Assembly: GCF_017471675.1 (NCBI RefSeq) | Contig: NZ_JAFUSK010000007.1 | Span: 1-39,164, forward strand | DNA length: 39,164 bases | Source of the DNA: Pseudobutyrivibrio sp. | GTDB taxonomy: Bacteria; Bacillota; Clostridia; Lachnospirales; Lachnospiraceae | Reading direction: 5' to 3' | Shown here: positions 13,354 through 37,091 of the stretch, one piece after another | Layout of the letters: each line of letters opens with the position of its first letter | Numbering within the stretch: position 1 is the first letter of the stretch | The notes under the pieces: generated by a model | Database searches by the model: none | What the model saw: the letters and a program-made list of their open reading frames with translations, nothing else | Told to the model about the DNA's origin: nothing | Program-made: the position numbers and the translations under genes

Positions 13354-14706
13354 TTAATTAAAGTCATACTCTGCCGGATTTGCCGTAAGTGCGTATTTTT
13401 GCTGGCTTATCACAGCTTTTTTCAACTTTGTTCTATCACTAATCAATCCCTTTAGTCGATAGATGAGTTTTCTGAAATCTTTTGCATCAAATCGATTTTC
13501 CGGTGCCGTATAACATAATCCGTGGGCTGTTTCATTGAATGCCAGCAGCAATTGATTTTGAATAAATGCCTGCCTTGTGGCATTCACTATCTCCCCCTCA
13601 TGATTAATATCAAGATAGTAATCACATCTTGCAAACAAGCCATTTAGTGTGGACATTTTGATATTAGGATACAAAATAGCATTGTCATATTTTTCATGAG
13701 CTAAAAGCTTTGCGGACATTTCTGTAAGTGCCGCCACATGAAACTTTACCTCAGGAAGGGCCTCTATTAGTTCTTGCAGCTTTTCCACCTCCTGGGTGTT
13801 GGTGCAAATCAAAGCCTCCTTGCGTCCTAAGTTTTCCCTTTCAAATGGGTATATGTACCCAAGCCTTGATACTATATTTTTAGCTCCATCTACCTTACTT
13901 AGCCTTTCATAGGATGGATTGTTTTGCACTACTATCCTGTTACATCTAGGAGCCTTTCCATCTAAGATAAGCTGCATATTCCCCGGTATGTCTTTGCCCA
14001 TTTCTTCCTGCCAAAACAATATATCGCATTTACGATATTCACCCTCAGGTAATGCATTAGATACAAAAAATGGAATTGATAATGAATTAAAGTATATTGC
14101 CTTTTTATCAAAGCCATTCAGCAACATGTAGTAAACCACAAATTCAGTTCTATTTTTAAAGAACCTTGTAACCCCTTTATAATTTAAAATAATATCGCCG
14201 GTAACAAAATTCTCAATAATTACCTCATTTCCTGTTGCATCAAAATAGGATTTGCTGACCTTTTTGGCAAATTTATTAAAGATTGTTCTTCCATAGCAAA
14301 TACCATATTTATTGTAGTGGTCGCTGGCCTTAACCACTCCATCCTCGTCCAGCCAATCAACCACCTTTACAAGCCTTTTGTTTTTAGGCTCCTGGTAAAA
14401 GATTCTTCCTCGTTCCTTGGATTTGTCATGGACACTTCCACTGTTATTATTTCCACTAATCTGCCAATATTCTGGCACTTTTATCTGATTAAAATATAGG
14501 GGCTTTGCTAAATTGTTTCCACCAAAAATATCCCCAAGGAAATATTCAAAAACATTCTCCACATTATCAGGCAAAAAGCCTTCATCATTGATGCATACAG
14601 CTTTTATTTCATAACCTGCATTAGAAAAAGAGGCAAGCAAATCTCTGCTTCCCAAATTAAAATAATCAAACAGCAACACTATATTGTCTCTATTAGATTT
14701 TTCCAT
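13354..14706 (-). CDS. gtfB: Accessory Sec glycosylation chaperone GtfB
   Basis: 450 aa, matching GtfB of serine-rich repeat protein loci (about 440-450 aa). GtfB has a glycosyltransferase fold but lacks activity; it binds the unglycosylated adhesin and activates GtfA. Landmarks: NIVLLFDYFNLGSRDLLASF at the N-terminus, WLDEDGVVKASDHYNKYG (about 120-137), DILFWQEEMGKDIPGNMQLI (about 228-247) and the C-terminal RCDYYLDINHEGEIVNATRQ. GGAGG lies 5 nt before the ATG, and the first 28 nt overlap the end of gtfA, so the two are translationally coupled. It is the last gene of the operon. Confidence 0.95.
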   Translation of the reverse strand: MEKSNRDNIVLLFDYFNLGSRDLLASFSNAGYEIKAVCINDEGFLPDNVENVFEYFLGDIFGGNNLAKPLYFNQIKVPEYWQISGNNNSGSVHDKSKERGRIFYQEPKNKRLVKVVDWLDEDGVVKASDHYNKYGICYGRTIFNKFAKKVSKSYFDATGNEVIIENFVTGDIILNYKGVTRFFKNRTEFVVYYMLLNGFDKKAIYFNSLSIPFFVSNALPEGEYRKCDILFWQEEMGKDIPGNMQLILDGKAPRCNRIVVQNNPSYERLSKVDGAKNIVSRLGYIYPFERENLGRKEALICTNTQEVEKLQELIEALPEVKFHVAALTEMSAKLLAHEKYDNAILYPNIKMSTLNGLFARCDYYLDINHEGEIVNATRQAFIQNQLLLAFNETAHGLCYTAPENRFDAKDFRKLIYRLKGLISDRTKLKKAVISQQKYALTANPAEYDFN

Positions 14707-16175
14707 TTTGCCTCCACTTCATGGGCTAAGTATTCCTTAGCCTTTTTGTAAGAATGCTCATGCATCTCATCTAAATCATCTTCCATAAAAAGCTTTTTAA
14801 TTGCATCCACTATAAGCTTTTGCCTGCGGGATTTTTCTATTCCAATATTGTATGGAAGCTTATATCCGTTCTTTCCTTCGTCTATAAAATTCTTGTTGCC
14901 ATATCTCACATCAAATCCTATTATTGGAAGCCCTGAACCTATGGCTTCCATAAGGGTCAATCCAAAGCCTTCACTGGTGGAGCCAGATAGATATGCTTCG
15001 TAGTTTACATACACATTCTCCAGGTCATGCTGCCCCATTAACCGTATATACGAATCAGCCTTAAGAGCTTCAATCTGCTGCTTTAGAGTCTTTTCTGCTG
15101 CGCCCTTTCCATAGATATCAAGGGTAATATCCTCCATCTCCTTATGCACTTCTGCCACTGCATCCACCAGCCAATCCACATGCTTTTCTGTGGCAAGCCT
15201 TGATGCTGTTATTAAAGAATGTGCTTTTCTTTCCTTGTCAGGATACTTTAGCTCTGGCAAAGCACCTACTGGTATCGTATATACGTTAGGTGTTACATTC
15301 ATATATTTTTGAAACTGGCTAATCATAAGCTGCCTTTGGTCTTCTGTGGCAGTGATGTAAAAATCAACCCTGCCGTGCATAGCAAAGGAGTACTCATAAT
15401 AATTATTCCAAAGGATGTTATCATCATCAGTAGCCCCCTCACTAAAGTGGTCTGCATGGATAACAATTCCAAGCTTGGCCTCACCTATATTTTCCATTAT
15501 CGCCTGGCCCTGGCCTGTGGTTCTATCAATAATTACAATGTCATCCTTTGTAAGCTGAAGCTTCTTTGTCATATATCCAATTAGCTCCTGCTTAGAGCAT
15601 ATCAACTTGTCAGGAAACTTATACATTACATTGCCATCATCATTTATCTCCTCGTAAGCAAGGCTTCCATCCTGATTAAAGAACCTGCGATGATACATGT
15701 GAGCCTTACCGTCAAGTGGGGCATAATATTCTGAAAACACCCTGCCTGAAATAAAATAATCCTTTCTAACCAGGCAGCCTCTTGATACCATTTCCACTCT
15801 ATGAACGCAGTCTGAATCCGCATTTACGAAGTAGATTCTGTAAAAATTGTTATCTCCTTCAAATACAAATTTTCCTATTTTGCCTTCTCTTTCATAGGTT
15901 AGGCTTACATCCCCAACACTAGCTCTAAGGTCGTCCAATGTGTATGTAACAGGCCCTAAGGTGATATCAGTGAAAAATGTATAAAGCCATATAATCTCAT
16001 CATCCTCAAAGCCGATATTCTCAGTCATGTCAGTTAAATTGTCTCTTGGAAACATATCGGTGAATATGAACTTGGCTGGCTTATTTATATTTCTTAGGAC
16101 TTTGGCTCGGTAGCTTTGGGCGTATTCTACACCAGAGCTGGCCCAGCCTATGCCTAGGTTGAAGTTGTAGATCAT
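14679..16175 (-). CDS. gtfA: Accessory Sec GlcNAc transferase GtfA
   Basis: 498 aa. The start is the ATG at 16175 (GGAGC just upstream), giving MIYNFNLGIGWASSGVEYAQ, the conserved N-terminus of streptococcal GtfA (about 503 aa). A longer frame to 16214 would run into the hairpin repeat. It is a GT-B enzyme of family GT4 that adds GlcNAc to Ser/Thr of the adhesin in the cytosol. The EX7E signature is SEGFGLTLMEAIGSGLP near residue 400, with SRLATEKHVDWLVDAV and DIYGKGAAE before it. It acts as a complex with GtfB, encoded in overlap. It is separated from secA2 by a triple-hairpin repeat that may alter expression of the last two genes. Confidence 0.96.
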   Translation of the reverse strand: MIYNFNLGIGWASSGVEYAQSYRAKVLRNINKPAKFIFTDMFPRDNLTDMTENIGFEDDEIIWLYTFFTDITLGPVTYTLDDLRASVGDVSLTYEREGKIGKFVFEGDNNFYRIYFVNADSDCVHRVEMVSRGCLVRKDYFISGRVFSEYYAPLDGKAHMYHRRFFNQDGSLAYEEINDDGNVMYKFPDKLICSKQELIGYMTKKLQLTKDDIVIIDRTTGQGQAIMENIGEAKLGIVIHADHFSEGATDDDNILWNNYYEYSFAMHGRVDFYITATEDQRQLMISQFQKYMNVTPNVYTIPVGALPELKYPDKERKAHSLITASRLATEKHVDWLVDAVAEVHKEMEDITLDIYGKGAAEKTLKQQIEALKADSYIRLMGQHDLENVYVNYEAYLSGSTSEGFGLTLMEAIGSGLPIIGFDVRYGNKNFIDEGKNGYKLPYNIGIEKSRRQKLIVDAIKKLFMEDDLDEMHEHSYKKAKEYLAHEVEAKWKNLIETI

Positions 16176-16187
16176 AGTTGCTCCTTT

Positions 16188-16253
16188 CGTCAGCTGCGCT
16201 GACGCGACCCTCATCAGTCACCTGCGGTGACAGCTTCTCCCAAAGGGAGAAGC
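16188..16253. repeat. Triple-hairpin intergenic repeat between secA2 and gtfA
   Basis: Three stems in 66 bp: CGTCAGC/GCTGACG (16188-16204), GTCACC/GGTGAC (16217-16231) and GCTTCTCCC/GGGAGAAGC with AAA loop (16233-16253). The segment reads ...CCCTCATCAGTCACCTGCGG.... I recall very similar dispersed repeats in many gut and rumen Clostridia, so this is probably a MITE/REP-like element rather than part of either gene. Confidence 0.7.
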
Positions 16254-16261
16254 CTCATTGT

Positions 16262-18610
16262 TTACGGAAGAATAATGTGTAGTCTATTTTTCTTATCCAT
16301 GCTCACTTCCGATAGAAGGATGTTTCTTATGATATTTTGTTTAATGGTACTTTCCATTTTTCTAAAGGATTCCAAGGCCTCGGCCTGGTATTCATACATA
16401 AGATTTCGCTGTGCGCTGCTTCGTCCAGACACTGCCGCCTGCAGCTGCTGCAAATAATCCACCTGCTCTATCCATGCTTCATCAATAGCAGAAAGTGCCG
16501 CCACCCTTATAAAATCATTCATGCCATTTTCCGATGCAATAGCCTTACTTTTCCCTGCCAGCGATTCCTCCACTCTTTCAAGCACGTATTCCTTAACCTG
16601 CTTTTTATTTTTCAGATTCAAATACATGGTGCCCTTTTCCATTCGATAGGATATATTATCCAAAAGATATCTATTCAAATCACTGGTGGTAAGTCTATTA
16701 TTTTGTTTAAGAAAAGCATCTATATTTTCCTCGGCAATTTCCTTTATTTTCTCCTTTTCAAGGGTTCCTCCATCCAGCAGCATATCTCTGGTTTCGTACA
16801 TCAGCTTTCGCTCCAGCTGCAGCACCAAATCATAGTCCTTGGAAGTCTTTCTATTGGTGCTTCCAATTTCCTCATTGGTGCGCTGGGCATTATTGACTAT
16901 TCGCTTAACTCTCCAGTCACTGATTTTTTTCTTGCCATCTATGTATTTTTTTAGCTTCGCCGGGTCTGTGCCCTTTTCCACAATATCATCCTCCAGGGAT
17001 ACTATAAACCTGCTATAGCCTGGGTCTCCCTGCCTTCCGGCTCTGCCTCTGGCCTGCCTTTCATCACGTGTATTAAGCATTCGCCCAACACCGATAACTG
17101 CAAGTCCTCCCAGCTCCTTAACACCTGGGCCAAGCTTGATATCAGTACCACGACCTGCCATGGATGTGGCCACGGTCATAGCCCCAAGCTGACCTGCCTC
17201 CTTAATAATATCAGCCTCCCAAAAGGCATTGTTGGCATTAAGCACCGAATGAGGAATCCCTTCCTTAACCAGCAGATGCGATATGATTTCCGTATCAGAA
17301 ATCATTGTAGTTACTATCAAAACCGGCTGACCTGTTTCATGCTTTTTCACAGCCAGGCGAATAGCCGCTTCAAATTGCTTTGAAGAATCACTAAAAAACC
17401 AATCAGGACAATCCACCCTCTTTATAGGATTATTGGTAGGAATCACCACAACCCGTTTGCCATATACCTCAAACAGCTCATCCTTGGCATCATAGATTGT
17501 TCCACTCATTCCACTCATCTTAGGAAACATTGAGAAAAAATTCTGGTAGGTAATAGATGCCATGGAACGATTTTCCTGGGTAATCTCTACCTGCTCCTTA
17601 CATTCCAGTGCCTGATGCTGTCCACCTCTAAGCTTAACGCCTTTTAACATTCGCCCTGAGCTGGCATCAATAAGAGCTACCTCCCCTGTTTCAGAAATCA
17701 TGTACTCAGTACCTTTTTCTATTATTTTGTGGGCTCGAAGTGCCAGTACCAAATGACGATAGATTTCAAAATACTTAGGATTGAAAATATTGTCTATTCC
17801 AAAATATTCTTCCGCATAGCTTAATCCCTTATCTGTAAACCATACATTCTTTTCCTCCACCTCATAATCCTGGTCTTCCCTAAGGGTTCTAACAAAGAAA
17901 TCTGCTGATTCGTACAGATTAGATTGAACTCTTGGTGAACCAGAAATAACAAGAGGTGTGCTGGCACTGTCTAAAAGCACCGAATCTGCTTCGTCTATAA
18001 TGATGTAATTAAATGGTCTAAGGAACCTGTCTTCGCTGGATTTAACCAGATTGTTTATCAGGTAATCGAAGCCTAAGGCAGAGTGGGTGGTATATACGAT
18101 ATCTGCTGCGTATATTTCCTTCTTTTCATCATTTTCAAATCTATCATCCTCGTCACGTTTTACGCCTGCTTTTATAGATAAACCCATAAATTCATAGGCA
18201 GGTCCCATCTCTTCGGCATCCCTCAGTGCCAGATATTCGTTGTTTGTAACAAGGATTGCCCCCTTTTTTGTAAGGCCATTAAGATACATTGGCAAAGTGG
18301 CAGTAAGTGTCTTGCCCTCTCCTGTGTTCATCTCTGCAAGATACCCTTGATGAAGAGCTATTCCAGCTAAGATTTGCACATCAAAGGGATACATTCCAAG
18401 CACTCTTTTATCTGCCTCGCACATGGCAGCAAAGGCTTCTGGCAGGATTTTATCCAAGGATTCCCCTGACTCAAACCTTGTGCGAAAATCCTTAGTCAGC
18501 CCCTTAAGCTCATCATCTGAAAGCCCACTCATGCTTTCTTTAAGAGCCTTTACCTTCTTCAATTCCTTAATCAACTTCTTTACAGTCGCCTTGGTCTTTA
18601 CTATTTTCAT
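16262..18610 (-). CDS. secA2: Accessory Sec translocase ATPase SecA2
   Basis: 782 aa; the C-terminal zinc-binding tail of housekeeping SecA is missing, as expected for SecA2. Walker A is MNTGEGKTLTATL (GEGKT at 97-101), Walker B IIIDEADSVLLDS (DEAD at 206-209). Helicase motifs AGRGTDIKLG and QARGRAGRQGDPGYSRF are intact, and the protein ends in a helical scaffold. The protein drives export of the glycosylated serine-rich repeat adhesin through SecY2. Its ATG overlaps the asp3 stop by ATGA, and GAGGAAG provides the ribosome site. Confidence 0.97.
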   Translation of the reverse strand: MKIVKTKATVKKLIKELKKVKALKESMSGLSDDELKGLTKDFRTRFESGESLDKILPEAFAAMCEADKRVLGMYPFDVQILAGIALHQGYLAEMNTGEGKTLTATLPMYLNGLTKKGAILVTNNEYLALRDAEEMGPAYEFMGLSIKAGVKRDEDDRFENDEKKEIYAADIVYTTHSALGFDYLINNLVKSSEDRFLRPFNYIIIDEADSVLLDSASTPLVISGSPRVQSNLYESADFFVRTLREDQDYEVEEKNVWFTDKGLSYAEEYFGIDNIFNPKYFEIYRHLVLALRAHKIIEKGTEYMISETGEVALIDASSGRMLKGVKLRGGQHQALECKEQVEITQENRSMASITYQNFFSMFPKMSGMSGTIYDAKDELFEVYGKRVVVIPTNNPIKRVDCPDWFFSDSSKQFEAAIRLAVKKHETGQPVLIVTTMISDTEIISHLLVKEGIPHSVLNANNAFWEADIIKEAGQLGAMTVATSMAGRGTDIKLGPGVKELGGLAVIGVGRMLNTRDERQARGRAGRQGDPGYSRFIVSLEDDIVEKGTDPAKLKKYIDGKKKISDWRVKRIVNNAQRTNEEIGSTNRKTSKDYDLVLQLERKLMYETRDMLLDGGTLEKEKIKEIAEENIDAFLKQNNRLTTSDLNRYLLDNISYRMEKGTMYLNLKNKKQVKEYVLERVEESLAGKSKAIASENGMNDFIRVAALSAIDEAWIEQVDYLQQLQAAVSGRSSAQRNLMYEYQAEALESFRKMESTIKQNIIRNILLSEVSMDKKNRLHIILP

Positions 18611-19041
18611 TCTACTTCCTCAATAGTAATGGAATGATATGTAAACTCTGTCATACCTGCGTTAATAAGCTGCATTTTGTAGCTGTAGGTTTTTAGAGGG
18701 CAGCTAAAATCGGCCTCCGTTCCTCTTATGGTAAAATCCCCTGCTTCTCTTTCATATCTATCTAAGAATACAAGCCTTACCAAGCATCCCTTACCATCTG
18801 GGGTTTTAACATTTATCTTGATGTGATAATGGCTTTCCCCATCTATAATCGGCAGTGCAGGCTCTATCCTTTGTGCCTGATAATTAGTCATGGAATACCA
18901 TTCCTTAATCACAGTGCCTGGTGGCATCAGCTGGTTTTTAAAATGCACATTATTCCTGGCAAAATACTGAATATCCGAACCATACAGATATGTATCAGAG
19001 CTATATTCATTCCAATAAATTGTCCAGCTTGCTTTCTCCAT
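18607..19041 (-). CDS. asp3: Accessory Sec protein Asp3
   Basis: 144 aa, close to the about 150-aa family. N-terminal WTIYWNEYSSDTYLYGSDIQ and central FKNQLMPPGTVIKEWYSM and ALPIIDGESHYHIKI are the characteristic Asp3 beta-sandwich strands. Asp3 resembles a carbohydrate-binding module and forms the Asp1-Asp2-Asp3 complex that binds the adhesin and SecA2. GAGG lies 5 nt upstream of the ATG. It lies between asp1 (7 bp upstream) and secA2 (4-bp overlap), the order also seen in streptococci. Confidence 0.92.
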   Translation of the reverse strand: MEKASWTIYWNEYSSDTYLYGSDIQYFARNNVHFKNQLMPPGTVIKEWYSMTNYQAQRIEPALPIIDGESHYHIKINVKTPDGKGCLVRLVFLDRYEREAGDFTIRGTEADFSCPLKTYSYKMQLINAGMTEFTYHSITIEEVE

Positions 19042-19048
19042 ACCTACC

Positions 19049-20668
19049 TCAATCTTTTTCCTCTATTGTATTTCTTACCATTTTCCATTTTTCAAGCAGA
19101 TGCTTAGTGGTAAATTTCTGACTGATTTCGTAAGAATAAACCTTTGCCTGATTCCAGTTAGCCAGACTTCCCAAAAAGTAATCCAAAGCCACAGGAATAC
19201 GGTCAAAATCCTTAACAACAAACCCATTGTAGCCATTTTGCATGTACTGGGTTTCCCTGCGGACTATCTGAGGAATTGCAGAGCTTATGCAGTTTATCTG
19301 CAAATACAAATCAGGATTATGGCGCATGTCTATCATTATTCTCTGCTCTCTGATACATTTACTTACAGATAGTTCATCCACACACTGCTCCACAAAAAAT
19401 CTTATTGGGATTTCTTCCTCATCCTCATCTGCATCCACTTCATCATTTTCTGCGGTATCATCAACATCCTTATCACTTATTACCATTCGTCTATCGTATC
19501 CTGCTTCCTCAATAATATCTGCAATATTGTTAATCAGAATATCAGGCAAATCGTACTTGGCATTTCTGGTAAAAATATGAATCATGGCGTTTTCATTGGT
19601 CTGAAGATATGCCGCCAGATTTATCATAAGCAGCTTAAACCTTTCTTTTGGAAGGTTATCCACTGGTACTAAAATCTTTTGTACAGTAAGCTGCTCGCTG
19701 ATACCAAAATCCATTCTGGAATCGTAAGGCGAGATATCTACTATGTTAGATAAATCAGTCTTCATTTCACGCTTTAAATAGCGGGTAGTTGCCTCGGAAT
19801 CAGTGATAATGTAGTCAGCTTTTTTTACCAAATCTATATTTTCTTCGTGATCCTTTATCCTATATCTATCCCCGTAAAAGGACAGAATAGATTTGCCATT
19901 TTCAATCAAATCCCTGGTGATTAATACATTTAATTCGTGCATTGCAATACAGAAAATATCACTTTTGTTATCTGTATCAAGATTGGCATTTAATACCTCT
20001 AAAATAACTTCTGCCAGGCTATCATACTTACCCTTGGCAAAGGTTTTGGTGGTGATTTTATCATCCTTAAATACAAGAAAGGTATTGGATTTTTCATTGA
20101 TTTCTACAGAGCCATCTTTAGCAATCACCCTCATCTTTGTGACGCCCTTATCAGTGAGGTAATCCGTATATACGATATTTCCCTTTTCGTATACCTCCGT
20201 GGCAGACACAAAGCCTCTGTCGTCATATATGTTTCGCCTGCTGATTACATCCTCTTCATACATGCTTACTTCGATAGGATTACCAGCTTCCCCAAAATTA
20301 ATCTGGGCATATTTTTTTCCTTCTAAATAAGCGATTACTACAAAAGGTGTATAAACAAATTCTATCTTTTCAGGCCAGGCCAGATTATGAAAGGAGAACA
20401 CCGCTGCCTTCTTTTTTTGCACCTCTTGAATGGAATCAAAAACAGACAAATATGGAGCATGAAATACTCCCTGCCTGTGCAAAAAATGCCTGAAATTTGG
20501 AGTATGGCTCAACAGCAAAATCTTAAAATCCTTAATGCCATTTCTGTAGAACATCTGCACATACTTTACCATGTCGTCAAACTCCGTGTGCATTCTACGG
20601 GTATGCCAGTTTTGCTCCAATTCCTTAAAGCTATTTAATTGATACCATGCCGGGATAAAATATAGCAT
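19049..20668 (-). CDS. asp1: Accessory Sec protein Asp1
   Basis: 539 aa, the usual length. It starts MLYFIPAWYQLNSFKELEQN, the typical Asp1 opening, followed by FDDMVKYVQMFYRNG. Asp1 has an inactive GT-B-like fold with a linker domain and joins Asp2/Asp3 in preparing the adhesin for export. The middle and C-terminus contain ITDSEATTRYLKREM and ISSAIPQIVRRETQYMQNGY, matching the GT-B-like half. An acidic insert DDTAENDEVDADEDEEE (about 400-416) is probably species-specific. The ribosome site is weak (GGAGGA 13 nt upstream); the gene is 26 bp after secY2. Confidence 0.93.
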   Translation of the reverse strand: MLYFIPAWYQLNSFKELEQNWHTRRMHTEFDDMVKYVQMFYRNGIKDFKILLLSHTPNFRHFLHRQGVFHAPYLSVFDSIQEVQKKKAAVFSFHNLAWPEKIEFVYTPFVVIAYLEGKKYAQINFGEAGNPIEVSMYEEDVISRRNIYDDRGFVSATEVYEKGNIVYTDYLTDKGVTKMRVIAKDGSVEINEKSNTFLVFKDDKITTKTFAKGKYDSLAEVILEVLNANLDTDNKSDIFCIAMHELNVLITRDLIENGKSILSFYGDRYRIKDHEENIDLVKKADYIITDSEATTRYLKREMKTDLSNIVDISPYDSRMDFGISEQLTVQKILVPVDNLPKERFKLLMINLAAYLQTNENAMIHIFTRNAKYDLPDILINNIADIIEEAGYDRRMVISDKDVDDTAENDEVDADEDEEEIPIRFFVEQCVDELSVSKCIREQRIMIDMRHNPDLYLQINCISSAIPQIVRRETQYMQNGYNGFVVKDFDRIPVALDYFLGSLANWNQAKVYSYEISQKFTTKHLLEKWKMVRNTIEEKD

Positions 20669-20694: not shown

Positions 20695-21900
20695 CTAAAT
20701 AAACTGGACATAACCATCAAAATCCTTAACCGCTCTTAATTCTCTATACAGATTGCAATTGATGCTTGCCATGGCAATCATAATAGATGGCAGGCTCATT
20801 ACATCCTGTGGCACCAGGCCTTTTAACTGAAGTACCAAAGGCATTCCTATAAAAAGGCTCATAAAAGTGGCAGAAAAAATAGATATTATAAATACTCTAA
20901 TGCCTATATATCTTCTTGTTTTTTTGCCTGCCCTTAATCCTGTGATGCTATCTCCTGATTTTTGCAATGATTCTGCCAGGTTCTTTGGGCTAATAAAAAC
21001 AAAGGAAAAAACTATCGTAATTACGTATAAAACAACAATGTACACTCCTATTCCAAGGGTACAGCTGGTGTTCATATTATCATGTAGATAGCTTATAGTT
21101 TCATTCTCTGGAAGCAATGAGTTCAGTGCCGATAACACATACACAGGCAGGGCAAAAAATGCCGATGAAAACATTACAGGCATCATTCCTATAGGATTAA
21201 GCTTTATGGGAATATAGTTTTTATCAGAATAAATGTTATGAATAGAAATACGCTGCATAGGTATTCTATATTCAGTATTTTCAAAAATAATTGTAAACAG
21301 CAATGCCACCACAGAGATGGTTCCAATCAGCTTTAAATCCGCAAGCTTTGTGTATCTTACAGTATTTACAACGCTATCTAGGATGTTTACATAAATAAGA
21401 ATTGTCTGGCCGCCTATTCCGTATTTACCATTACGTGTAGCAAGCCACAGAATCACAAAGGCACCTGTAACCAGCTGGGCTGCCGATATAAGCTTGGCAA
21501 TAGTCAGCTCAACACCGCCTTCGTATATATAGAAAGTTGAATTAGATGTGAAATAAGCTTGAATACAAGCCCATACCAGCATCAAATTAAGAGTCGCCCT
21601 CGTTACCTTTTTAGGCGACGTATGAGATTTGCTATCTGCATTTTTAAATGCAACAGCCATCTGAACAAACAAAGTAGAAAACATAAAGGGAGAAATACCA
21701 AGGGCTAAGATAGATGTTTTGTATCTATCTCCACCGATTGTCTGCATAATCAAATCCTCGGTATTACCCCTAAGTGCTTCGTAAGCATCAAGATTAACCC
21801 CATATAATGGCAGCTCTCTACCGATTAGATAAATTGCCATAATTATTAGGGTAAAAAACATTTTTTGAATTAGTGTTTTAGGAAAGAAACGTCTTTTCAT
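20695..21900 (-). CDS. secY2: Accessory Sec channel SecY2
   Basis: 401 aa, shorter than housekeeping SecY (about 430) and typical of SecY2. About ten transmembrane helices can be traced, beginning LIQKMFFTLIIMAIYLIGRE and followed by the plug-region loop ALGISPFMFSTLFVQMAV. Cytosolic loop C5 carries FVFISPKNLAESLQKSGDSI and LRAGKKTRRYIGI, as in SecY. It forms the membrane channel for the serine-rich repeat adhesin. The ATG overlaps the stop codon of the GGDEF response regulator (ATGA), so the two are made from one message and are probably translationally coupled. Confidence 0.95.
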   Translation of the reverse strand: MKRRFFPKTLIQKMFFTLIIMAIYLIGRELPLYGVNLDAYEALRGNTEDLIMQTIGGDRYKTSILALGISPFMFSTLFVQMAVAFKNADSKSHTSPKKVTRATLNLMLVWACIQAYFTSNSTFYIYEGGVELTIAKLISAAQLVTGAFVILWLATRNGKYGIGGQTILIYVNILDSVVNTVRYTKLADLKLIGTISVVALLFTIIFENTEYRIPMQRISIHNIYSDKNYIPIKLNPIGMMPVMFSSAFFALPVYVLSALNSLLPENETISYLHDNMNTSCTLGIGVYIVVLYVITIVFSFVFISPKNLAESLQKSGDSITGLRAGKKTRRYIGIRVFIISIFSATFMSLFIGMPLVLQLKGLVPQDVMSLPSIMIAMASINCNLYRELRAVKDFDGYVQFI

Positions 21901-23198
21901 CCAATCTGCTCGACCTCATAAGAAATACTCAATCCAGTATTCATTTCATTCCATTTTCCAAGCAATCGTTCTATTACAACACCTGTGTCCACAGGACTTG
22001 CCTCTAACAATATAACAGCCACTGTATTGCTGCTTCGTTTGGTAACAACATCACTGCTTCTTAGTGAATGTGACATTACATCCACTAGCAACTGGGCAGG
22101 CTCCTTTTTTGCAGCTGCCCCCTCATTTTCTGTAACAGTAAATAATGCCAGCTTGTTTTCCCTGTGATAATTAAGCTCTGCCCTGGCTAGGAATCTATAG
22201 ATTAGCCTAAACTGCTCGCTAGATAACACCATAGCCCCTTTTTCTTTATTTCTCTCACTAAGGATAGCGATTTCTCGCATGATTCCATTATCGGCACAGT
22301 CATTTGAAAGCTCTTCATGCTGATGCTCCCTGTAAATAGCATAGCCGTGCTTGCCATTTTGCTTAACATCGTAAAGAGCCTTGTCAGCCTTCTGATATAA
22401 GGTAAGAAAATCGGTGCCCTCATCAGGAACAGCCACTGCCCCAATTGATGCACCTAGGGGTATTGTCATATCCTCCCCCATGTATTCCCTGGCAGATTTA
22501 AGAAGCTCCTGATTTATATATCTTGCCTTTTCAGCCACTACTTCCTCTTCTGATATATACTGGCAAAAAGCTATGAATTCATCACCACCCATGCGACCTA
22601 CAATATCTGTCGTTCGCACTGCAGATTTGATAATCTCTGCAAATCTAATCAGCACCTTATCTCCCATGGAATGCCCGTACAAATCGTTCACCAGCTTAAA
22701 GCTATCCAGGTCTATCATCATAAGCATTCCTTCAGTATTGCCAGCTGCCTCACCTATTTCAAACTGAGATGAAGCCTTATTAAGCAAGCCTGTCATAGGG
22801 TCTGTATCGGCTGCTTTCTTTAGGCCATTAATCTTCTCCACATTCTTTAGAATATTGGCAACTCTTCTAAGAAGCACATCTGCCCTAAAGGGCTTTTTGA
22901 TATAATCCACTGCACCATTTTCAAAGCCCATGATTTCTGTTTCATCACTGCTATCAGCAGTCATAAACATCACCGGGATATGCTCCTGATACATGTCCTG
23001 CAATGTGTTTTGAAGCTCAAATCCTGACATTCCAGGCATGTTCAAATCAGACAGGATCATGTTAGGACGTTCCCTTTTATAAATCCCAATTGCCTCCTCA
23101 CCAGATGTAGCGCATATAGTCTCATAGCTGGTAGAAAGAATGTGAGCTGTCATTTTTAAGGTGATGATTTGATCATCTACAATAAGTATCTTTTCCAT
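21897..23198 (-). CDS. REC-GGDEF response regulator (diguanylate cyclase) inside the accessory Sec operon
   Basis: 433 aa. The receiver domain (1-120) has acidic pocket D8/D9, phospho-acceptor D51 in LSDLNMPG, T80 and K101. The GGDEF domain (about 130-290) has DPMTGLLNK, MIDLDSFKLVNDLYGHSMGD and an intact GRMGGDEFIAF (204-208), with an RxxD product-inhibition site RTTD at 195-198, so it should make c-di-GMP. Residues about 310-433 look like a second, degenerate GGDEF fold (SLRSSDVVTKRSSNTVAVIL, with SSNT in place of GGDE). It lies 5 bp after the HPt gene and overlaps secY2. It presumably accepts phosphate via the HPt; no histidine kinase lies in the window. Confidence 0.95.
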   Translation of the reverse strand: MEKILIVDDQIITLKMTAHILSTSYETICATSGEEAIGIYKRERPNMILSDLNMPGMSGFELQNTLQDMYQEHIPVMFMTADSSDETEIMGFENGAVDYIKKPFRADVLLRRVANILKNVEKINGLKKAADTDPMTGLLNKASSQFEIGEAAGNTEGMLMMIDLDSFKLVNDLYGHSMGDKVLIRFAEIIKSAVRTTDIVGRMGGDEFIAFCQYISEEEVVAEKARYINQELLKSAREYMGEDMTIPLGASIGAVAVPDEGTDFLTLYQKADKALYDVKQNGKHGYAIYREHQHEELSNDCADNGIMREIAILSERNKEKGAMVLSSEQFRLIYRFLARAELNYHRENKLALFTVTENEGAAAKKEPAQLLVDVMSHSLRSSDVVTKRSSNTVAVILLEASPVDTGVVIERLLGKWNEMNTGLSISYEVEQIG

Positions 23199-23202
23199 TT
23201 TC

Positions 23203-23544
23203 CTATCCTATCAGTGTAAGTAACTTGTTACGTTCTTCCCACATTTTGGCAATAAGCACAGAATAATCCATATCCTTGTTAACTCTTAGCCCTTCTGTTA
23301 TCTCGCTAACAGGATTAAGAATAGGGGTCAATGCAAGATTTGCCAGTATCCCCTTAAGGGAATGAGCCACCTCAAAGGCTTGCCTGAAATCCCCCGCCTT
23401 TACCAAATCCTCTATAGATTTGTAGTAGGATTCCTCAAGGGCTCCCGGTATTAATCCAAGATAGAATTCTTCATCATCTAAGCAGCGTTCTAAGCCTTCA
23501 TCTACCGCTGCTCCAAAGCTTCTTAGTAAATCTATAGAAAGCAT
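23203..23544 (-). CDS. HPt (histidine phosphotransfer) domain protein
   Basis: 113 aa, a stand-alone HPt four-helix bundle. The phospho-accepting motif is FEVAHSLKGILANLAL with His61; flanking helices match the family (LIPGALEESYYKSIEDLVKA before it, ILNPVSEITEGLRV after it). HPt proteins shuttle phosphate between hybrid kinases and receivers. The immediate downstream partner is the REC-GGDEF protein. GGAGGAGAGG precedes the ATG, 20 bp after asp2. Its presence inside an accessory Sec operon is unusual. Confidence 0.9.
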   Translation of the reverse strand: MLSIDLLRSFGAAVDEGLERCLDDEEFYLGLIPGALEESYYKSIEDLVKAGDFRQAFEVAHSLKGILANLALTPILNPVSEITEGLRVNKDMDYSVLIAKMWEERNKLLTLIG

Positions 23545-23564: not shown

Positions 23565-25055
23565 CTACCTACCAAAATCTTCCTTCAAAATCCTATCGTA
23601 CTGCCCCTTAAACCATGTTGCGATTCCACCTGTATTATCGTTATGTCTACCATGAAGTCCCTTGCCATACACCTGCACTCCCGAAGAATTAAGCTCCGTC
23701 AGAAGCTTTCCGTAGGCTGTAGAATCATAATCATCCTCGTACATATAGGAAACTACAAACTTTGTGCGGCTAAAATCCGTATTTCTAATCTTAGTCCAAA
23801 ACCTGTCATTAAGCTTTTGTACTGCATCCTCATCCATTGCTCCGGCATATTTGTGTAGCAAATCCAAGGAAGTAGGAAATCCCTTAGGGCGCTTTAATCT
23901 TTCATTGGCTGCTATATCACCAAGGCTAGCCAAAGGCTTTCCAAGTATTAAAGCATGTGGTCTCAAATCGCATCCATAATACATGGAGCCAATGGTTCCC
24001 ATGGAAATACCTGAAAGAATCAACTGGTCTGGATAGAACCCAAGCTGAGATAGCTTATCTGTGATAATTTTAACCATCAAGCTTTCAAATTCACTGTCTC
24101 CCATATAAAAGCCGCCACCCTCAAATCTTTGCTCAGCTATAAGCAAAAAAGGACAGTTAAGCTTTCTCATCATGTAATAGCCTTCAAAGCCCTCCTGGGT
24201 TTTGTAGCCAGAAAAATAAACGGTGAGGGGCGGTTTTAAATCACCTGGATCAAAATAACAGAATATTTCTTCCCTGCTACTGGTGACATACCTTTCCCCA
24301 CCAACCATAAACTTGCCCACATCTATGTGAGAAATTCTATCGTGCAATGCAATAATATCAAGCTTACCTGCTCCAGATGCATTTAAAGATACATATAGCA
24401 TCCCCTGTTCCTTGCCTTCTATCACTACAGGATTTTTCATATCATCCTCTGAAAAGTTCCATGAGTTTGATATATCTGCAATGCTACCGCTTACAAACTG
24501 CCTGATGGAAAGTGATATGTTAACAGCTTCATCCTTCTTATACTCCAGCCAAAATTCTATAGCCTGCCCCTTTTGAATAGGGATATTGGTGCGCCAGAAT
24601 GCTATCTGATTCATGGTCTTACCATAATCCCCTTCCAAGGACACGCTATAGTTTCCATCCCACTTAATACTGCCCTTAAATCCTTGAGCTATTCCCACAG
24701 AATTAGGCCTATATTTCTCACCATAAGGCTTTGAAAAATATTTTTTAGCATCGCGGTCTAAAAAAGATTGGATATCTGCCTTACTTATAGTAGCTCCCAT
24801 TCTCTGATTCAATAGCTTTTTAGTGCTATCATTTTGGATCAAATCTTCTGCCACCAGCAAGCAATATGAATAGGAATGAGCCTTCAGTACCTTAAAATCA
24901 TCCTCATCAATATTCTTTTCAAGGATGGTTAGTTCAAAGATATCCTTCTTTTTTATTTCATCAGTCTTATAGGTATAAATCTTTACAAAATCAGGAATAT
25001 TATATTCAGTTTTCCAGTCTTTATCTGAAACAACTAAAATCTTAATTCTATCCAT
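23565..25055 (-). CDS. asp2: Accessory Sec protein Asp2 (adhesin GlcNAc O-acetyltransferase)
   Basis: 496 aa, similar to streptococcal Asp2 (about 500). It is an alpha/beta hydrolase fold with the nucleophile in LILSGISMGTIGSMYYG (Ser351), acidic residues at YMYEDDYDSTAY (Glu440/Asp441) and His471 in GLHGRHNDNTGG. The Ser-to-Glu and Ser-to-His spacings match the S. gordonii Asp2 triad as I recall it. It acetylates GlcNAc on the adhesin during export and is needed for transport. The central beta domain contains WDGNYSVSLEGDYGKTMNQ. The gene begins 1 bp after the stop of the upstream membrane protein. Confidence 0.95.
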   Translation of the reverse strand: MDRIKILVVSDKDWKTEYNIPDFVKIYTYKTDEIKKKDIFELTILEKNIDEDDFKVLKAHSYSYCLLVAEDLIQNDSTKKLLNQRMGATISKADIQSFLDRDAKKYFSKPYGEKYRPNSVGIAQGFKGSIKWDGNYSVSLEGDYGKTMNQIAFWRTNIPIQKGQAIEFWLEYKKDEAVNISLSIRQFVSGSIADISNSWNFSEDDMKNPVVIEGKEQGMLYVSLNASGAGKLDIIALHDRISHIDVGKFMVGGERYVTSSREEIFCYFDPGDLKPPLTVYFSGYKTQEGFEGYYMMRKLNCPFLLIAEQRFEGGGFYMGDSEFESLMVKIITDKLSQLGFYPDQLILSGISMGTIGSMYYGCDLRPHALILGKPLASLGDIAANERLKRPKGFPTSLDLLHKYAGAMDEDAVQKLNDRFWTKIRNTDFSRTKFVVSYMYEDDYDSTAYGKLLTELNSSGVQVYGKGLHGRHNDNTGGIATWFKGQYDRILKEDFGR

Positions 25056-25056
25056 C

Positions 25057-26079
25057 TTAATTGACTCTATCCTCTACCTTTAAGCCCAATAGTTTATCAA
25101 TAAGTGAAAATGCACTGGCAACTGGAACAACATAGAGAGCCTTTGTTAATTCCACGTATGATGGAAGATTATCCCCCTGAAGAGCAATAATAATTATCGT
25201 AAATACAATAATTCCCAACCAGTAGCAAAGGTCTGTAGCAGAATGCTCCACAATACATTTTATTACTATAACCACCACAAACAGCAGCACTATAAAAATC
25301 CAAGGTGTTCCAATCAGTAGCTGTAGTCCTTCTTTGAATGAGCCCAGATTCTTCATATTGTATACAACAACCTGGCTGATAAATGCTGCTCCATTTTTGA
25401 AATACCACAGATAAATACTCATTGGTAGACCTACTGTAATAATTCCTTCTAATGTAGAAAAAACAAAGGAACGATATCTCTTACTATCCAATCCTTCCAC
25501 CTTAAATTTAACTGCAAACATAAGAAGGATTCCTACCCAAATCCATACATAGCCTGGTTGTAGGAAAAACACCAGTCCTAAATCAATTGCAAGCAAATAA
25601 GTATGATGTGACAAATAGCCTGATTTAAGCTGTCGAGAAATATGATAGCAGCTAAGTGTAAGAATGAAGAACATAAGCTCTTCTGCACCTGCATGAGTAA
25701 GGGCACCCCATCCAAAAATAGACAAAAGGGCTGCTGTCACAAATGCAAAAGCTTCTGATGTGTAAAGCTTAGCTGTTTTGTACATGAATAGAATTGTAAA
25801 GAATAGAATCACACATTCCATGGCAAACTGAATCACATGAGAATCTGTAGGCAAATATCCCAATCCAAAGAATTCGTATACCACTGGTCCATAATGTCCG
25901 TCCAGCTCTACGTATGCCAGATAGCCCTCTCTTACAGAATGTGCTATAGAAAGGATTTCATTTTGAATATCCGTAAAAGCGCCGTTCCCCCATGGATTCA
26001 AAGGGCTTGATAGCGCCACAATAAAAGTGGTGGCTACAACTGCCAAGAATTCAATAGTTCTTTTTAGTTTTATATTCAT
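25057..26079 (-). CDS. Polytopic membrane protein, GT-C glycosyltransferase-like
   Basis: 340 aa with about eight or nine transmembrane helices. The first extracytoplasmic loop reads AFTDIQNEILSIAHSVREGY, then LDGHYGPVVYEFFGL, which resembles the catalytic loop of GT-C/PMT-ArnT enzymes (Asp-rich loop, then H-x-GP). The usual soluble C-terminal domain is missing. It is the first gene after the adhesin terminator and 1 bp from asp2, so it belongs to the export/glycosylation operon. It may transfer a lipid-linked sugar to the adhesin outside the membrane; this is inference. I know of no such gene in the classical streptococcal loci. Confidence 0.7.
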   Translation of the reverse strand: MNIKLKRTIEFLAVVATTFIVALSSPLNPWGNGAFTDIQNEILSIAHSVREGYLAYVELDGHYGPVVYEFFGLGYLPTDSHVIQFAMECVILFFTILFMYKTAKLYTSEAFAFVTAALLSIFGWGALTHAGAEELMFFILTLSCYHISRQLKSGYLSHHTYLLAIDLGLVFFLQPGYVWIWVGILLMFAVKFKVEGLDSKRYRSFVFSTLEGIITVGLPMSIYLWYFKNGAAFISQVVVYNMKNLGSFKEGLQLLIGTPWIFIVLLFVVVIVIKCIVEHSATDLCYWLGIIVFTIIIIALQGDNLPSYVELTKALYVVPVASAFSLIDKLLGLKVEDRVN

Positions 26080-26230: not shown

Positions 26231-29200
26231 TTACTTATCTGTGTCCTCTACTTCTTTTTGAGTTGCTTTTTTCTTATCTTTAGCGATTTTTCCTGTTATT
26301 GCGCTGATGATGATAAGAATCCAGTACCACCACATTCTTCCTCCAAGTCCGCTCTTGCTCACGCCAAGTGGTGTCTCCTCATCCTCAATAATCGTATCAT
26401 CATCCAAATCAGCATCATCTAATCTTACTGCTAGAGGAACCTGAGCATCTCCAATATCAGCAGGACCAACTTCGTTAAGTCTGTTAACAGTTCTGTTATT
26501 TACATTGTTAACTTCGTTAAATTCTGTTGTAACTGAAGCCTCCTCATTTGTTTCACTAGCTGATGCTGGTGTATTTCCACCATTACCAGTGTTGCCTGGT
26601 GTTTCACTAGCTGCTGCACTATTGCTTGCAGATTCTGAAGCACTCTGGCTGAGTGAAGTACTTGTGCTTTCACTTAGTGAGGTTGATGTACTATCACTTA
26701 ATGATGTGCTAGTGCTGTCACTGAGTGATGTCGATGTACTATCACTGAGTGATGTGCTGGTGCTTTCACTTAGTGAGGCTGATGTACTATCGCTGAGTGA
26801 TGTGCTGGCGCTTTCACTTAATGATGTTGATGTACTGTCACTAAGTGATGTACTTGTGCTTTCACTTAATGAGATCGATGTACTATCACTGAGTGAGGTA
26901 CTTGTACTCTCACTTAATGAAGTTGATGTACTGTCACTGAGTGATGTCGATGTACTATCACTTAGTGATGTACTTGTGCTTTCACTTAATGATACTGATG
27001 TACTATCACTGAGTGATGTACTTGTGCTCTCACTGAGTGATGTCGATGTACTGTCACTTAATGATGTTGATGTACTATCGCTAAGTGATGTACTTGTACT
27101 CTCACTTAATGATGTTGATGTACTATCACTGAGAGAGGTGCTTGTGCTCTCACTGAGTGATGTTGATGTACTGTCACTTAGTGATGTGCTGGTGCTTTCA
27201 CTTAGTGAGGTTGATGTACTATTGCTAAGCGATGTGCTTGTGCTCTCACTTAATGATGTTGATGTACTATCACTGAGTGAAGTGCTTGTGCTTTCACTTA
27301 GTGATGTTGATGTACTATTGCTAAGTGAAGTACTGGTGCTCTCACTTAATGATGTACTTGTACTATCACTGAGTGATGTGCTGGTGCTCTCACTGAGTGA
27401 GGTTGATGTGCTATCGCTTAGTGATGTACTTGTGCTTTCACTTAATGATGTACTGGTGCTTTCACTTAATGAGGTTGATGTACTGTCACTGAGTGAAGTA
27501 CTTGTGCTATTGCTTAATGATGTACTTGTACTATCGCTTAATGATGTACTTGTGCTTTCACTTAGTGATGTTGATGTACTATTGCTAAGTGAAGTGCTGG
27601 TGCTCTCACTGAGTGATGTTGATGTACTATCGCTGAGTGATGTGCTGGTGCTCTCACTGAGTGATGTTGATGTACTGTCACTTAGTGATGTACTTGTACT
27701 CTCACTTAATGAGGTTGATGTACTGTCGCTAAGTGATGTGCTGGTGCTCTCACTGAGTGATGTTGATGTACTATCACTTAATGATGTGCTAGTGCTTTCA
27801 CTGAGTGATGTTGATGTACTATCACTGAGTGAGGTACTTGTACTCTCACTGAGTGATGTTGATGTACTATCGCTAAGTGAAGTACTTGTGCTTTCACTTA
27901 ATGATACTGATGTACTATCACTGAGTGAGGTGCTGGTGCTCTCACTGAGAGAGGTTGATGTACTATCACTTAGTGATGTGCTTGTACTTTCACTTAGTGA
28001 TGTTGATGTACTGTCGCTTAGTGAGGTACTTGTGCTCTCACTTAATGATGTTGATGTACTATTGCTAAGTGATGCGCTGGTGCTCTCACTGAGTGAGGTT
28101 GATGTACTATCGCTTAGTGATGTACTTGTACTTTCACTGAGTGATGTTGATGTACTATCGCTAAGTGATGTACTTGTACTCTCACTTAATGAGGTTGATG
28201 TACTGTCGCTTAGTGATGTGCTTGTACTCTCACTTAATGATGTACTGGTGCTTTCACTTAGTGATGTTGATGTACTATCACTGAGTGAGGTACTGGTGCT
28301 CTCACTTAGTGATGTTGATGTACTATTGCTAAGTGATGCACTGGTGCTCTCACTTAGTGATGTTGATGTACTATCACTTAATGAAGTGCTTGTACTATCA
28401 CTGAGTGATGTCGATGTACTATCGCTAAGTGATGTACTTGTACTCTCACTTAATGATGCCGATGTACTATTGCTAAGTGATGTACTTGCACTCTCTGACA
28501 AGCTTGCACTTGTAGAAGCTGATGTGCTTGCACTTGCTGAAATACTGTTGCTTAGTGACATGCTCTCACTAGTGTACTGTGAAAGACTTGTAGACAATGA
28601 ATCACTAACGCTTGTGCTCATAGAAGTACTTTCTGATGCTGATGTAGAAAGTGACTCAGAGCGAGATGCCGATGCACTCTCTGATGCACTTGCGCTTTCT
28701 GAAAGTGATTCACTTCTTGAGCCTTGGGCACTTTCTGATGCCTTCTCACTACCAGATGCTGATTCTGAAAGTGAGCTTGATTCTGACTTAAGGTCGCTTA
28801 ATGAATTAGAAAGTGAAGTAACTTCGCTTCTCTGCTCATGATACTCATCACGTCCTTTATTGAAATCATCCAGTGTAAAGTAGTTGTATCCCTTAACTCC
28901 AAAGTTACCATTCTTAACTTCGCCAAGTTTGTTTGTATATACTTCTGAACCATCGCCCTTGCGTGCAACAAATTCAGGACTAAATGAATCTGAAGATGTG
29001 CTGGCACTTGCAGCTGTGTAAAGTGTGATTTCCTGCTGTCTATAGCTAGCGCCTCTCTCATCAAAATAGCCAGTTAATGTATATGTTCCATCATGGTTGT
29101 CGATAATATTAGCATTGTAGTAATAGTATGTTTTTCCACCGATATTAAATGCTGTATATTGCTTCTTTCCTCTTAATGCCCAAGACCACTGATCAGGATT

Positions 29201-30661
29201 TTTCCTGTCAACCTTCTTATTAATCAAATTAAGAGTATTGCCATTTTCATCTATTAATGTAGAAACAACTGTATTTCCTTCTGAATCAGTCTGAACTACT
29301 CCAACTGTAGTATCAGCACTGTTTCTGGTGTAACCTACTAAATCATTGTTCCATTCATCACCTGCATTAGAGTACTGTCCCAAATCATGATAAACAGTAC
29401 CATCTGCTGCATCATAAATATAAGACTTATATCCAGGATTTTCCTCTGTAACTGCAACAACCTTAGCATCTGCTCCTGCATTAGACCAAGCTAAAGTAAA
29501 TGTGCCATCTTCGTTAACATTAACTGCCACGTCAGAACGTACTTCATTGCCATTAATATAATAGCGGCATACAGTCTGCTCTTTTCCATCAGCGCCAGTT
29601 TCTGTTTCATACTTCCATGTGAGTACGTTGCCATATTCATCTGAATATTTAACAGTCTTCTTAACAACCATGATACCGTCTACTACGTAAGGGTTATCAT
29701 GCTCTGCACCATAATTAGGGCTGTCCTTGAAGCCTGAAACAAGAGCGTTTCCATCACTATCTACTGTTACATAATCAAAATATGCGTACTTAGTAGCACC
29801 TGTAGAATCAATATATGTTACTTTAACGCTGTTTGTATGATAACTGCTTGAATCCCACTGGCTGTATGTAATCTCACCAACATAACCTTCCTGGTAGAAA
29901 GCATACTGGATAAGAAGATTAGCAAGCTTATCACCAGCTCCATAGTAGTTGTTGGATTTTGAATCGTGATTGAGATACTGACCTGCATCCTTAGCATTCT
30001 GCTGTGCAGCCTCTAATTCAGCCTTGGCCTGTTCTATCTGCTGCATCAATTCCTCTAGATAATCATCCTGATGACCTCCCTCAGAGAATGATGTTGAAGC
30101 TAAGTTGTAGTCATCCTCAGCCTCTGAAATTGCTGTAGACATGCTGGTATTCTCACTGGCTGCGCTTTCAGATGCAGCTGTTGATATGCTGGCAATCTCA
30201 GAATTCTCTGATGACAATGATGTAGCTGCAGATTCCGATGTAGATTCAATGGTAGAATCCTCTGTTGACAATGATGTGCTGGCAGACTCTGAATGCATTG
30301 TCTGATCTGACATAAGGTTAGACTCAGCAGTAGCTGCAGATTCTGATGCAGCTGCCAATTCAGATACAGCCTGATTTTCAACTGTCAAATCAACTTCTTC
30401 TAACTGCTTTTCATTTTCTTCCACAGCCTGCTGTGCTGTTTTTTCTTCTTCTATAGATTCAATAGAGGTTTGAAGCTGTTGCTCAGTCTGTTCTCTAGTA
30501 ACCTGAAGTACCACTTCACCCTGCGCCATAGCATTTGCTTCTTCTTCACCAAGCTCAGCTGCGTATGCAAGATTAGCATCACCTAAAACAGATGCGCCAC
30601 CAACAGTAGCACCTGTAATTGCAACACCTTTTAATAAATTCTCTACTTTCTTCTTTGACAT
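26231..30661 (-). CDS. Serine-rich repeat glycoprotein adhesin (accessory Sec substrate)
   Basis: 1476 aa. The ATG at 30661 has AAGGAG 7 nt upstream; an upstream in-frame ATG lacks a site. The signal peptide is short, with a glycine-rich core ([19 protein letters not shown], cleavage near AYA), as accessory Sec signals require; the long KxYKxGKxW form is absent. Order: a short Ser/Ala-rich region (about 90-190), a coiled coil (about 200-237), a unique region (about 240-605) rich in aromatic and Gly/Asn strands that is probably the binding part, Ser-rich repeats (about 615-1340), a linker with IGDAQVPLA and IEDEETPLG, and a membrane anchor [14 protein letters not shown] with a Lys-rich tail. 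No LPXTG motif is visible. It is transcribed separately from the export operon. Confidence 0.95.
26640..28495 (-). repeat. About 77 tandem 24-bp repeats encoding STSTSLSE/D octapeptides
   Basis: The unit codes for STSTSLS followed by E, D or N. Third-position variation keeps the copies from being identical, but the 24-bp phase is unbroken over about 1.85 kb. Codon choice leaves the opposite strand open for 778 codons, which is an artefact. The repeats are the expected O-glycosylation zone of the adhesin and are prone to length change. Confidence 0.9.
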
Positions 30662-30712
30662 TGTATAACTCCTTACCATTAAAAAAAGCCATCTATTTTC
30701 TTTCTCGGCATT

Positions 30713-30807: not shown

Positions 30808-31293
30808 TTAAGAATTAGTACCTAGCTTTTTTGAAGATTTTAACCCAGACAAAACCACTCCAATAATTAATATCCCTGCGGCGATTAGCTTGCCACTAAG
30901 AGTACTAATCCAGGTTGCCACATATCCATACACAGGAACATGAAATGCAACCTTGCCAAGCACATTAGTATATGCCACTGGCGTAAAGTCATTAGTGTTG
31001 TTTGCATCACCCTTTGTTGTAATTAGCATATTGTCCTTATCAATAGAAACAACCCGGTGTGTCACAACACTGTCTCCTGAGTAGAATGCGATAATATCTG
31101 CATCTTGAAGCTCATCAAATTCTACAGTTTTCACACAGACAATGGAGCCAACAGTAATTGTAGGCTCCATTGATCCTGATATTACGCAGAAGCCCTGTAG
31201 CCCAAACAGTCTCAAAATAGCTAAAGGGGCAGCTGCAATAATTACCAATATAATAAGAAGATTTCCTATAAAACTTAGTGCTTTATTATTCAT
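30808..31293 (-). CDS. sipW: Signal peptidase I, SipW type
   Basis: 161 aa from the ATG at 31293 (a TTG two codons upstream is possible). It has an N-terminal membrane helix, then CVISGSMEPTITVGSIVCVK with catalytic Ser41. The second catalytic residue is His, not Lys (VVTHRVVSID, His79), the hallmark of ER/SipW-type peptidases. TTKGDANNTND and a C-terminal membrane helix follow. SipW processes TasA/CalY-like proteins. Two such substrates are encoded in the same operon (33262-34528), so this is their dedicated peptidase. It is the last gene before the adhesin promoter; no clear terminator lies between. Confidence 0.94.
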   Translation of the reverse strand: MNNKALSFIGNLLIILVIIAAAPLAILRLFGLQGFCVISGSMEPTITVGSIVCVKTVEFDELQDADIIAFYSGDSVVTHRVVSIDKDNMLITTKGDANNTNDFTPVAYTNVLGKVAFHVPVYGYVATWISTLSGKLIAAGILIIGVVLSGLKSSKKLGTNS

Positions 31294-31306
31294 CAGCAAG
31301 TCTAAT

Positions 31307-32386: not shown

Positions 32387-32388
32387 CA

Positions 32389-33246: not shown

Positions 33247-33261
33247 ATTCTAATCTCCTCT

Positions 33262-36983: not shown

Positions 36984-37091
36984 TTTGTTCAACTCCCTTA
37001 CCATGTTTATTTATGTACTAATTGTAAAAAGTATGTGTAATTATTATGTCCACATGGTATATTAGTTGACCTTAGATTTTTTTTAAAGAGG

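Follow-up and report, generated by a model that had tools for sequence, protein, structure and literature searches.

The window, a stretch of 39,164 nucleotides from Pseudobutyrivibrio sp. (Lachnospiraceae; contig NZ_JAFUSK010000007.1, positions 1 to 39,164), contains an accessory Sec (aSec) locus with two signalling genes inside it. These encode a stand-alone histidine phosphotransfer (HPt) protein and a protein with a receiver (REC) and a GGDEF domain. All genes of the locus lie on the minus strand in the order srrp–membrane protein–asp2–HPt–REC-GGDEF–secY2–asp1–asp3–secA2–gtfA–gtfB. SecA2, SecY2, Asp1-3, GtfA/B and a serine-rich repeat adhesin are all present, which identifies the locus as accessory Sec. 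The asp2 gene (23565..25055, −; Pfam Asp2, E 1e-180) is followed after 20 bp by the HPt gene (23203..23544, −) and this after 4 bp by the REC-GGDEF gene (21897..23198, −), whose stop overlaps the secY2 start by 4 bp in an ATGA at bases 21897-21900. SecY2, the channel (20695..21900, −), had PRK12417 SecY2 as its best NCBIfam match (E 3.1e-78; 263 bits, below the curated cut-off of 353). By eye, GGAGG, a good ribosome-binding sequence, precedes the HPt gene, and no clear ribosome-binding sequence is close to the secY2 start, which is what translational coupling would predict for secY2. Terminator-like sites were not found on the minus strand at the asp2–HPt–REC-GGDEF–secY2 junctions.

The HPt protein has 113 residues, with the predicted phospho-acceptor His61 in HSLKG (HxxKG active site). 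It scored just under the Pfam Hpt cut-off (E 1e-4; 22.9 bits, cut-off 24.6), and its orthologues in genomes G399, G393 and G394 were below it too; the orthologue in genome G408 reached 27.9 bits. Pfam Hpt matched all 17 aligned homologues at E ≤ 0.01 (best 5.9e-10), and His61 was invariant among them. Solved HPt chains were matched weakly by the HPt profile (best E 5.5e-4). The assignment, weak by Pfam alone, is secured because the homologues match Hpt and keep His61, and on this homology the protein is a real HPt.

The REC-GGDEF protein has 433 residues and matched Pfam Response_reg (E 9.9e-24) and GGDEF (E 1.5e-38). Asp51 stands in DLNMPG, and RTTD (RxxD) and GGDEF occupy residues 195-198 and 204-208. 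The phospho-acceptor aspartate, switch threonine and lysine of the receiver (D51, T80 and K102) were invariant in 40/40 alignment rows (35 distinct). D163, D165, N171 and D172 (metal-binding aspartates, N/D substrate residues) were invariant, together with GGDEF, in all 35 distinct homologues, and D198 of RxxD was kept in 25. The nearest solved chains were those of PleD (2wb4/1w25, E 7e-43, residues 3-286), then 6zxm (2.6e-31) and 3bre (8.1e-24). PleD and DgcR were the best full-architecture names in NCBIfam, yet scored far under cut-off. The protein is thus a predicted diguanylate cyclase with an intact active site. An AlphaFold2 model (4 sequences; pLDDT 42) was too poor and was not used for fold search.

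Residues 318-433 had no Pfam match. This C-terminal domain was aligned with the catalytic GGDEF domain of the same protein by hhalign (probability 91.6, E 8.2e-7, 52 columns), with RSSD 380-383 paired with the I-site RTTD 195-198 and SSNTV with GGDEF. R380 was kept in 30 and D383 in all of the 35 distinct homologues. The domain is best described as a degenerate GGDEF that keeps RxxD, and it may be a candidate sensor of cyclic di-GMP (c-di-GMP). The original prediction, made from the DNA of the window, had placed the pair between asp2 and secY2 on one strand, with short gaps and an ATGA overlap, and had named His61, D51, RxxD 195-198 and GGDEF 204-208; all of this was confirmed. Its reading of the pair as an HPt and a GGDEF protein with an intact active site is borne out by the invariant residues and by the Hpt matches of the homologues.

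The Asp2 records nearest to that of the window were from Pseudobutyrivibrio, and 29 genomes of the genus were sampled, 28 with secY2 and 28 with asp2. Orthologues of both genes (≥70% identity; at most 60 candidates scored per genome) were found in five (G000, G393, G399, G394 and G408). All five have the arrangement HPt–(3-4 bp)–REC-GGDEF–(−4 bp, ATGA)–secY2, so that the order is kept in 5/29 and is not confined to a single genome, as would have spoken against the original prediction. Misassembly would not produce the same three-gene junction in five separate assemblies. SecY2 diverges by up to 26% among these carriers. No near second copies were found in the genus, the next best matches being 31-39% identical over part of REC-GGDEF and 40% identical for HPt. 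The 5' neighbour of the HPt gene is asp2 in three carriers, an adhesin gene in G394 and a kinase gene in G408; the last two arrangements link the pair to secY2, not to asp2.

The asp2–secY2 junctions of the 28 genomes were sorted into classes of our own. The pair occupies five, three are empty (2-7 bp), six contain extra adhesin-like open reading frames (ORFs), one has ~0.4 kb with a 128-residue ORF overlapping asp2, and in 13 the two genes are not simple neighbours. Several genomes (e.g. at loci L263-L265, L268 and L270 with L026, L028 and L024) have the aSec locus split in two, with adhesin–GT-C protein–asp2 at one site and secY2-asp1-asp3 and downstream genes at another. The secY2 of L254 (G392) is in two overlapping pieces of 258 and 151 residues, apparently through a frameshift.

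A tree of SecY2, Asp1, Asp3 and SecA2 (27 genomes) placed the carriers in two neighbouring groups, with several deep nodes poorly supported (36, 52, 54 and 56). The five REC-GGDEF proteins formed one clade (bootstrap 100) and, unrooted, branched like the aSec proteins. Identities to the window were 97, 86, 77 and 74% for REC-GGDEF and 99, 84, 78 and 74% for SecY2, matching as they would for a long-resident cassette. Between the window and G393, dN/dS was 0.023/0.20 for HPt, 0.013/0.14 for REC-GGDEF and 0.004/0.11 for SecY2; all three genes are under purifying selection in this nearest pair, to which the estimate was confined, synonymous sites being mostly saturated beyond it. A single capture after which the pair was lost several times would fit this pattern, and so would transfer of the block. 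A search of a plasmid collection with the pair gave no match, and a plasmid origin was rejected on that basis.

Relatives of HPt (E ≤ 1e-8) were found in 102 of 397 Lachnospiraceae-level genomes, the window's own included. Thirty-six of their loci elsewhere in the family were fetched, and in none of them was a gene for an Asp protein, SecY2 or GtfA/B seen close to HPt. Among the 31 loci that passed the ORF filter, a REC-EAL protein lay within two ORFs of HPt in 20 (GGDEF detected in 18 of these), an APC (permease-type) hybrid kinase was also present in three, and a REC-GGDEF protein without EAL was found in two. Relatives of the 433-residue protein (E ≤ 1e-60) occurred in at least 44 of the 397 genomes, own included, a lower bound as four candidates per genome were scored. 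The best of them outside the genus were full-length and 55-57% identical, from four other genera. Two of the four nearest of these relatives, at loci L190 (HPt divergent) and L210 (reverse order), adjoin HPt, and in the 13 kb fetched there no aSec gene was detected. Parts of the cassette are thus common in the family; what is unusual is its position next to secY2.

The pair was not found in the ten fetched streptococcal, staphylococcal, lactobacillar and enterococcal aSec loci (L098, L100-L104, L107, L108, L110 and L111), in keeping with the earlier expectation for the first three groups. The aSec loci of other genera likewise yielded no such pair; the set, partly redundant, came to 92 loci, and in the truncated ones absence cannot be judged. 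A more sensitive GGDEF profile, run on 114 aSec loci (redundant, some truncated, window excluded), found the cassette in seven loci from four genomes, with further matches in L033, L109, L085 and L048 and a weak one in L096. Independent recruitment of the same pair in L033 and L109 was considered and rejected: these loci, from outside Pseudobutyrivibrio, encode a membrane protein with an HD domain (by eye HD-GYP) and a GGDEF domain (L109 7908-10718, L033 2261-5080), not HPt/REC-GGDEF. Its gene lies ~80 bp after gtfB and an ORF of 203-206 residues, and the protein has, by eye, the same kind of C-terminal degenerate GGDEF; it would be a second c-di-GMP enzyme adjoining an aSec locus. In L085 a GGDEF ORF (2-916), cut by the locus start, lies on one strand upstream of a 421-residue ORF, a 1584-residue ORF in the position of the adhesin, and secY2.

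In G408 a kinase of the form amino-acid permease–HisKA–HATPase–REC is encoded 42 bp upstream of HPt, its start cut by the contig end. This is the only carrier in which a hybrid kinase, HPt and REC output stand together, and the kinase is incomplete there. The multistep phosphorelay of the original prediction is therefore supported in part: a hybrid kinase adjoins the pair in G408, and the window has no adjoining kinase. Four PilZ matches were obtained in the window genome, all on contigs other than that of the window, so general c-di-GMP receptors probably exist in this organism. Pfam and NCBIfam listed no c-di-GMP receptor domain for the aSec proteins of the window.

We put at about an even chance the reading that a phosphorelay-output cassette common in Lachnospiraceae was captured directly upstream of secY2 and is co-expressed with adhesin export. 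The sequences establish the gene order and its conservation, the motifs, the domain identities and the separate existence of the cassette; phosphotransfer, cyclase activity, a single transcript and the physiological output are what we infer. The captured cassette would run from a hybrid histidine kinase through HPt to a REC-diguanylate cyclase. The pair would share transcription and coupled translation with the genes for adhesin export, and cells building the export machine for the serine-rich repeat adhesin would also make a phosphorelay-controlled source of c-di-GMP. Phosphate would pass from the hybrid kinase (adjoining in G408, elsewhere in other carriers) to its own receiver, then to His61 of HPt and Asp51 of REC. 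PleD and WspR dimerise upon phosphorylation, and phosphorylated REC-GGDEF may dimerise in the same fashion and make c-di-GMP. RxxD 195-198 and the C-terminal degenerate GGDEF (R380/D383) could feed back on or sense the product. Acting through ordinary receptors (PilZ), c-di-GMP would favour sessile life during adhesin export. This scheme suggests that, in some rumen bacteria of this genus, stickiness and a rise in second messenger are switched on together. Of the ways in which the two could be coupled, co-expression demands the least; export might also be gated directly, with gene position as the one argument for it.

Several observations weigh against capture with co-expression. The pair is missing from 23 of the 28 secY2-bearing genomes of the genus, hence aSec does not need HPt/REC-GGDEF, and of the five carriers all but one match metagenome-assembled genomes. 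Carriers and non-carriers are intermingled on the aSec tree, which requires repeated loss or transfer, and the rootings conflict: with an outgroup the REC-GGDEF tree has G408 branching first (75%), and with midpoint rooting the aSec proteins place G408 together with G394. In G394 an adhesin gene separates asp2 from HPt, and G408 has asp2 on a different contig (it ends ~86 bases from the contig edge, and contiguity with HPt is possible). Four of the five carriers have no kinase gene adjoining the pair; a 56% relative of the G408 kinase is encoded on a separate contig of G394, and the window genome offers at best a match of 38% identity over the kinase part only. Two of the four genomes nearest outside the genus do not have the two genes side by side: HPt and REC-GGDEF are on different contigs in G391, and G548 had no HPt match at E ≤ 1e-8. 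A promoter-like site lies directly 5' of HPt (23588-23559, −); such sites occur in the window at chance frequency (54 observed, 56.1 in shuffles). No c-di-GMP riboswitch or other Rfam family reached the gathering score in the window, and riboswitch control was rejected for this reason.

A second reading treats the asp2–secY2 junction as a slot for variable cargo, in which the pair landed without a functional link to adhesin export. The varied content of this slot among the 28 genomes and the existence of the module elsewhere without aSec agree with it. A mere passenger would not readily account for the ATGA coupling and gene order kept in all five carriers over ~26% SecY2 divergence, for the purifying selection seen in the single genome pair near enough for an estimate, or for the orthologous pair being found, within the genus, only upstream of secY2. 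We regard this reading as possible and somewhat doubtful.

Direct control, in which c-di-GMP or the phosphorylated proteins govern aSec export or Asp2 O-acetylation post-transcriptionally and the degenerate GGDEF acts as a local sensor that docks on SecY2, SecA2 or one of the Asp proteins, appears unlikely. The pair does lie inside the export operon, coupled to secY2; the degenerate domain keeps a conserved RxxD; and there is a precedent in GcbC–LapD–LapA, where cyclase–receptor contact governs adhesin surface localisation (PMC6050961). The C-terminal domain is, however, not an aSec-specific adaptor, since relatives aligning over it occur in other Lachnospiraceae; the aSec proteins are without a listed receptor domain, and most secY2-bearing genomes of the genus do without the pair. 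The original prediction had proposed coupling of c-di-GMP to export or O-acetylation of the adhesin; nothing in the analysis shows it, position being its one argument. As both gene families occur outside aSec loci, a general cassette co-expressed with aSec fits at least as well as dedicated post-translational control. A bolder version, an export machine with a built-in c-di-GMP phosphorelay, would have the HPt and tandem GGDEF proteins at SecY2, a nutrient signal from the permease-fused kinase, and adhesin export gated by local c-di-GMP sensed by the degenerate GGDEF; we consider it a long shot. That the pair mainly supplies secY2 with a promoter and with translation, as a leader whose enzymatic output is secondary, is very improbable, for although secY2 starts inside the REC-GGDEF stop in 5/5 carriers and a promoter-like site precedes HPt, the catalytic and phospho-acceptor residues are conserved and promoter-like sites are at chance level.

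The remaining genes of the locus were assigned as follows. Downstream of secY2 lie asp1 (19049..20668, −; Pfam Asp1, E 5e-97), asp3 (18607..19041, −; Pfam Sec-ASP3, E 2.4e-47), secA2 (16262..18610, −; TIGR03714), gtfA (14679..16214, −; TIGR02918) and gtfB (13354..14706, −; TIGR02919), the last three over cut-off. The adhesin (26231..30679, −; 1482 residues), recognised by eye from its translation, is the presumed aSec substrate. Between it and asp2 is a gene for a multi-pass membrane protein of 340 residues (25057..26079, −) with no Pfam match. Its AlphaFold2 model (pLDDT 78, pTM 0.83) matched AglB, OST and ArnT in Foldseek (best E 8e-4, TM up to ~0.6), and a GT-C (oligosaccharyltransferase/ArnT-like) fold is predicted. 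The family has 19 aligned members, the others 56-74% identical, with E58/D60 nearly invariant. A lipid-linked-sugar transferase in an aSec locus, if this is one, would point to a glycosylation step on the outer side, in addition to that of GtfA/B in the cytoplasm. Upstream of the adhesin, a block at 30808-37004 (−) contains a signal-peptidase-like gene, several ORFs without a Pfam match over cut-off and an 827-residue SpaA/prealbumin-like surface protein; it is partly common to other Pseudobutyrivibrio adhesin loci.

In the available part of PMC6912079, accessory Sec and diguanylate cyclase are both listed, unlinked, as gene classes unique to Pseudobutyrivibrio. The serine-rich repeat adhesin, secA2 and two-component systems of L. 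reuteri are discussed for biofilm in PMC3873254, where the accessible text has the two-component systems separate from the secA2 cluster. Beyond that list entry, no paper joining aSec with diguanylate cyclases was found in the open-access PubMed Central literature as far as its texts were available, and none there combined Hpt, GGDEF and Lachnospiraceae, or SecA2, SecY2 and GGDEF. Within the same available texts, the pair inside an aSec operon was not found in print. The presence of carriers and non-carriers in one genus makes coupling between adhesin export and a second messenger testable. The tandem of catalytic and degenerate GGDEF also merits study, as does the GT-C-like membrane protein. 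To our knowledge, aSec has so far been studied in bacteria whose c-di-GMP signalling is slight or lacking, so that there was no setting in which to examine a genetic link of aSec with c-di-GMP.

The LapD system acts on adhesin retention after export. GcbC-LapD-LapA of Pseudomonas likewise ties a cyclase to the surface display of a large adhesin (PMC6050961) and differs in working through the receptor LapD. PleD, WspR and DgcR share with the window protein the REC-then-GGDEF order and conserved phospho-acceptor and catalytic residues. PleD has two REC domains; the window protein has a single one and an extra C-terminal degenerate GGDEF. Related in composition are the Lachnospiraceae clusters of HPt and REC-GGDEF-EAL (with or without the APC hybrid kinase), for which we know of no name: a homologous HPt (36-50%) adjoins a REC c-di-GMP protein, and the kinase type of three of the 31 loci is that of G408. 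They differ in lying outside aSec (36/36 fetched loci) and mostly in having an EAL domain. The accessory Sec loci of streptococci, staphylococci and lactobacilli share with the window the full set of seven core genes as well as a serine-rich repeat adhesin. Other genera usually have the order secY2-asp1-asp2-asp3-secA2 (exceptions include Companilactobacillus L100 and Enterococcus L108), whereas in the window asp2 stands apart from asp1, upstream of secY2, and HPt, REC-GGDEF and the GT-C-like protein are added.

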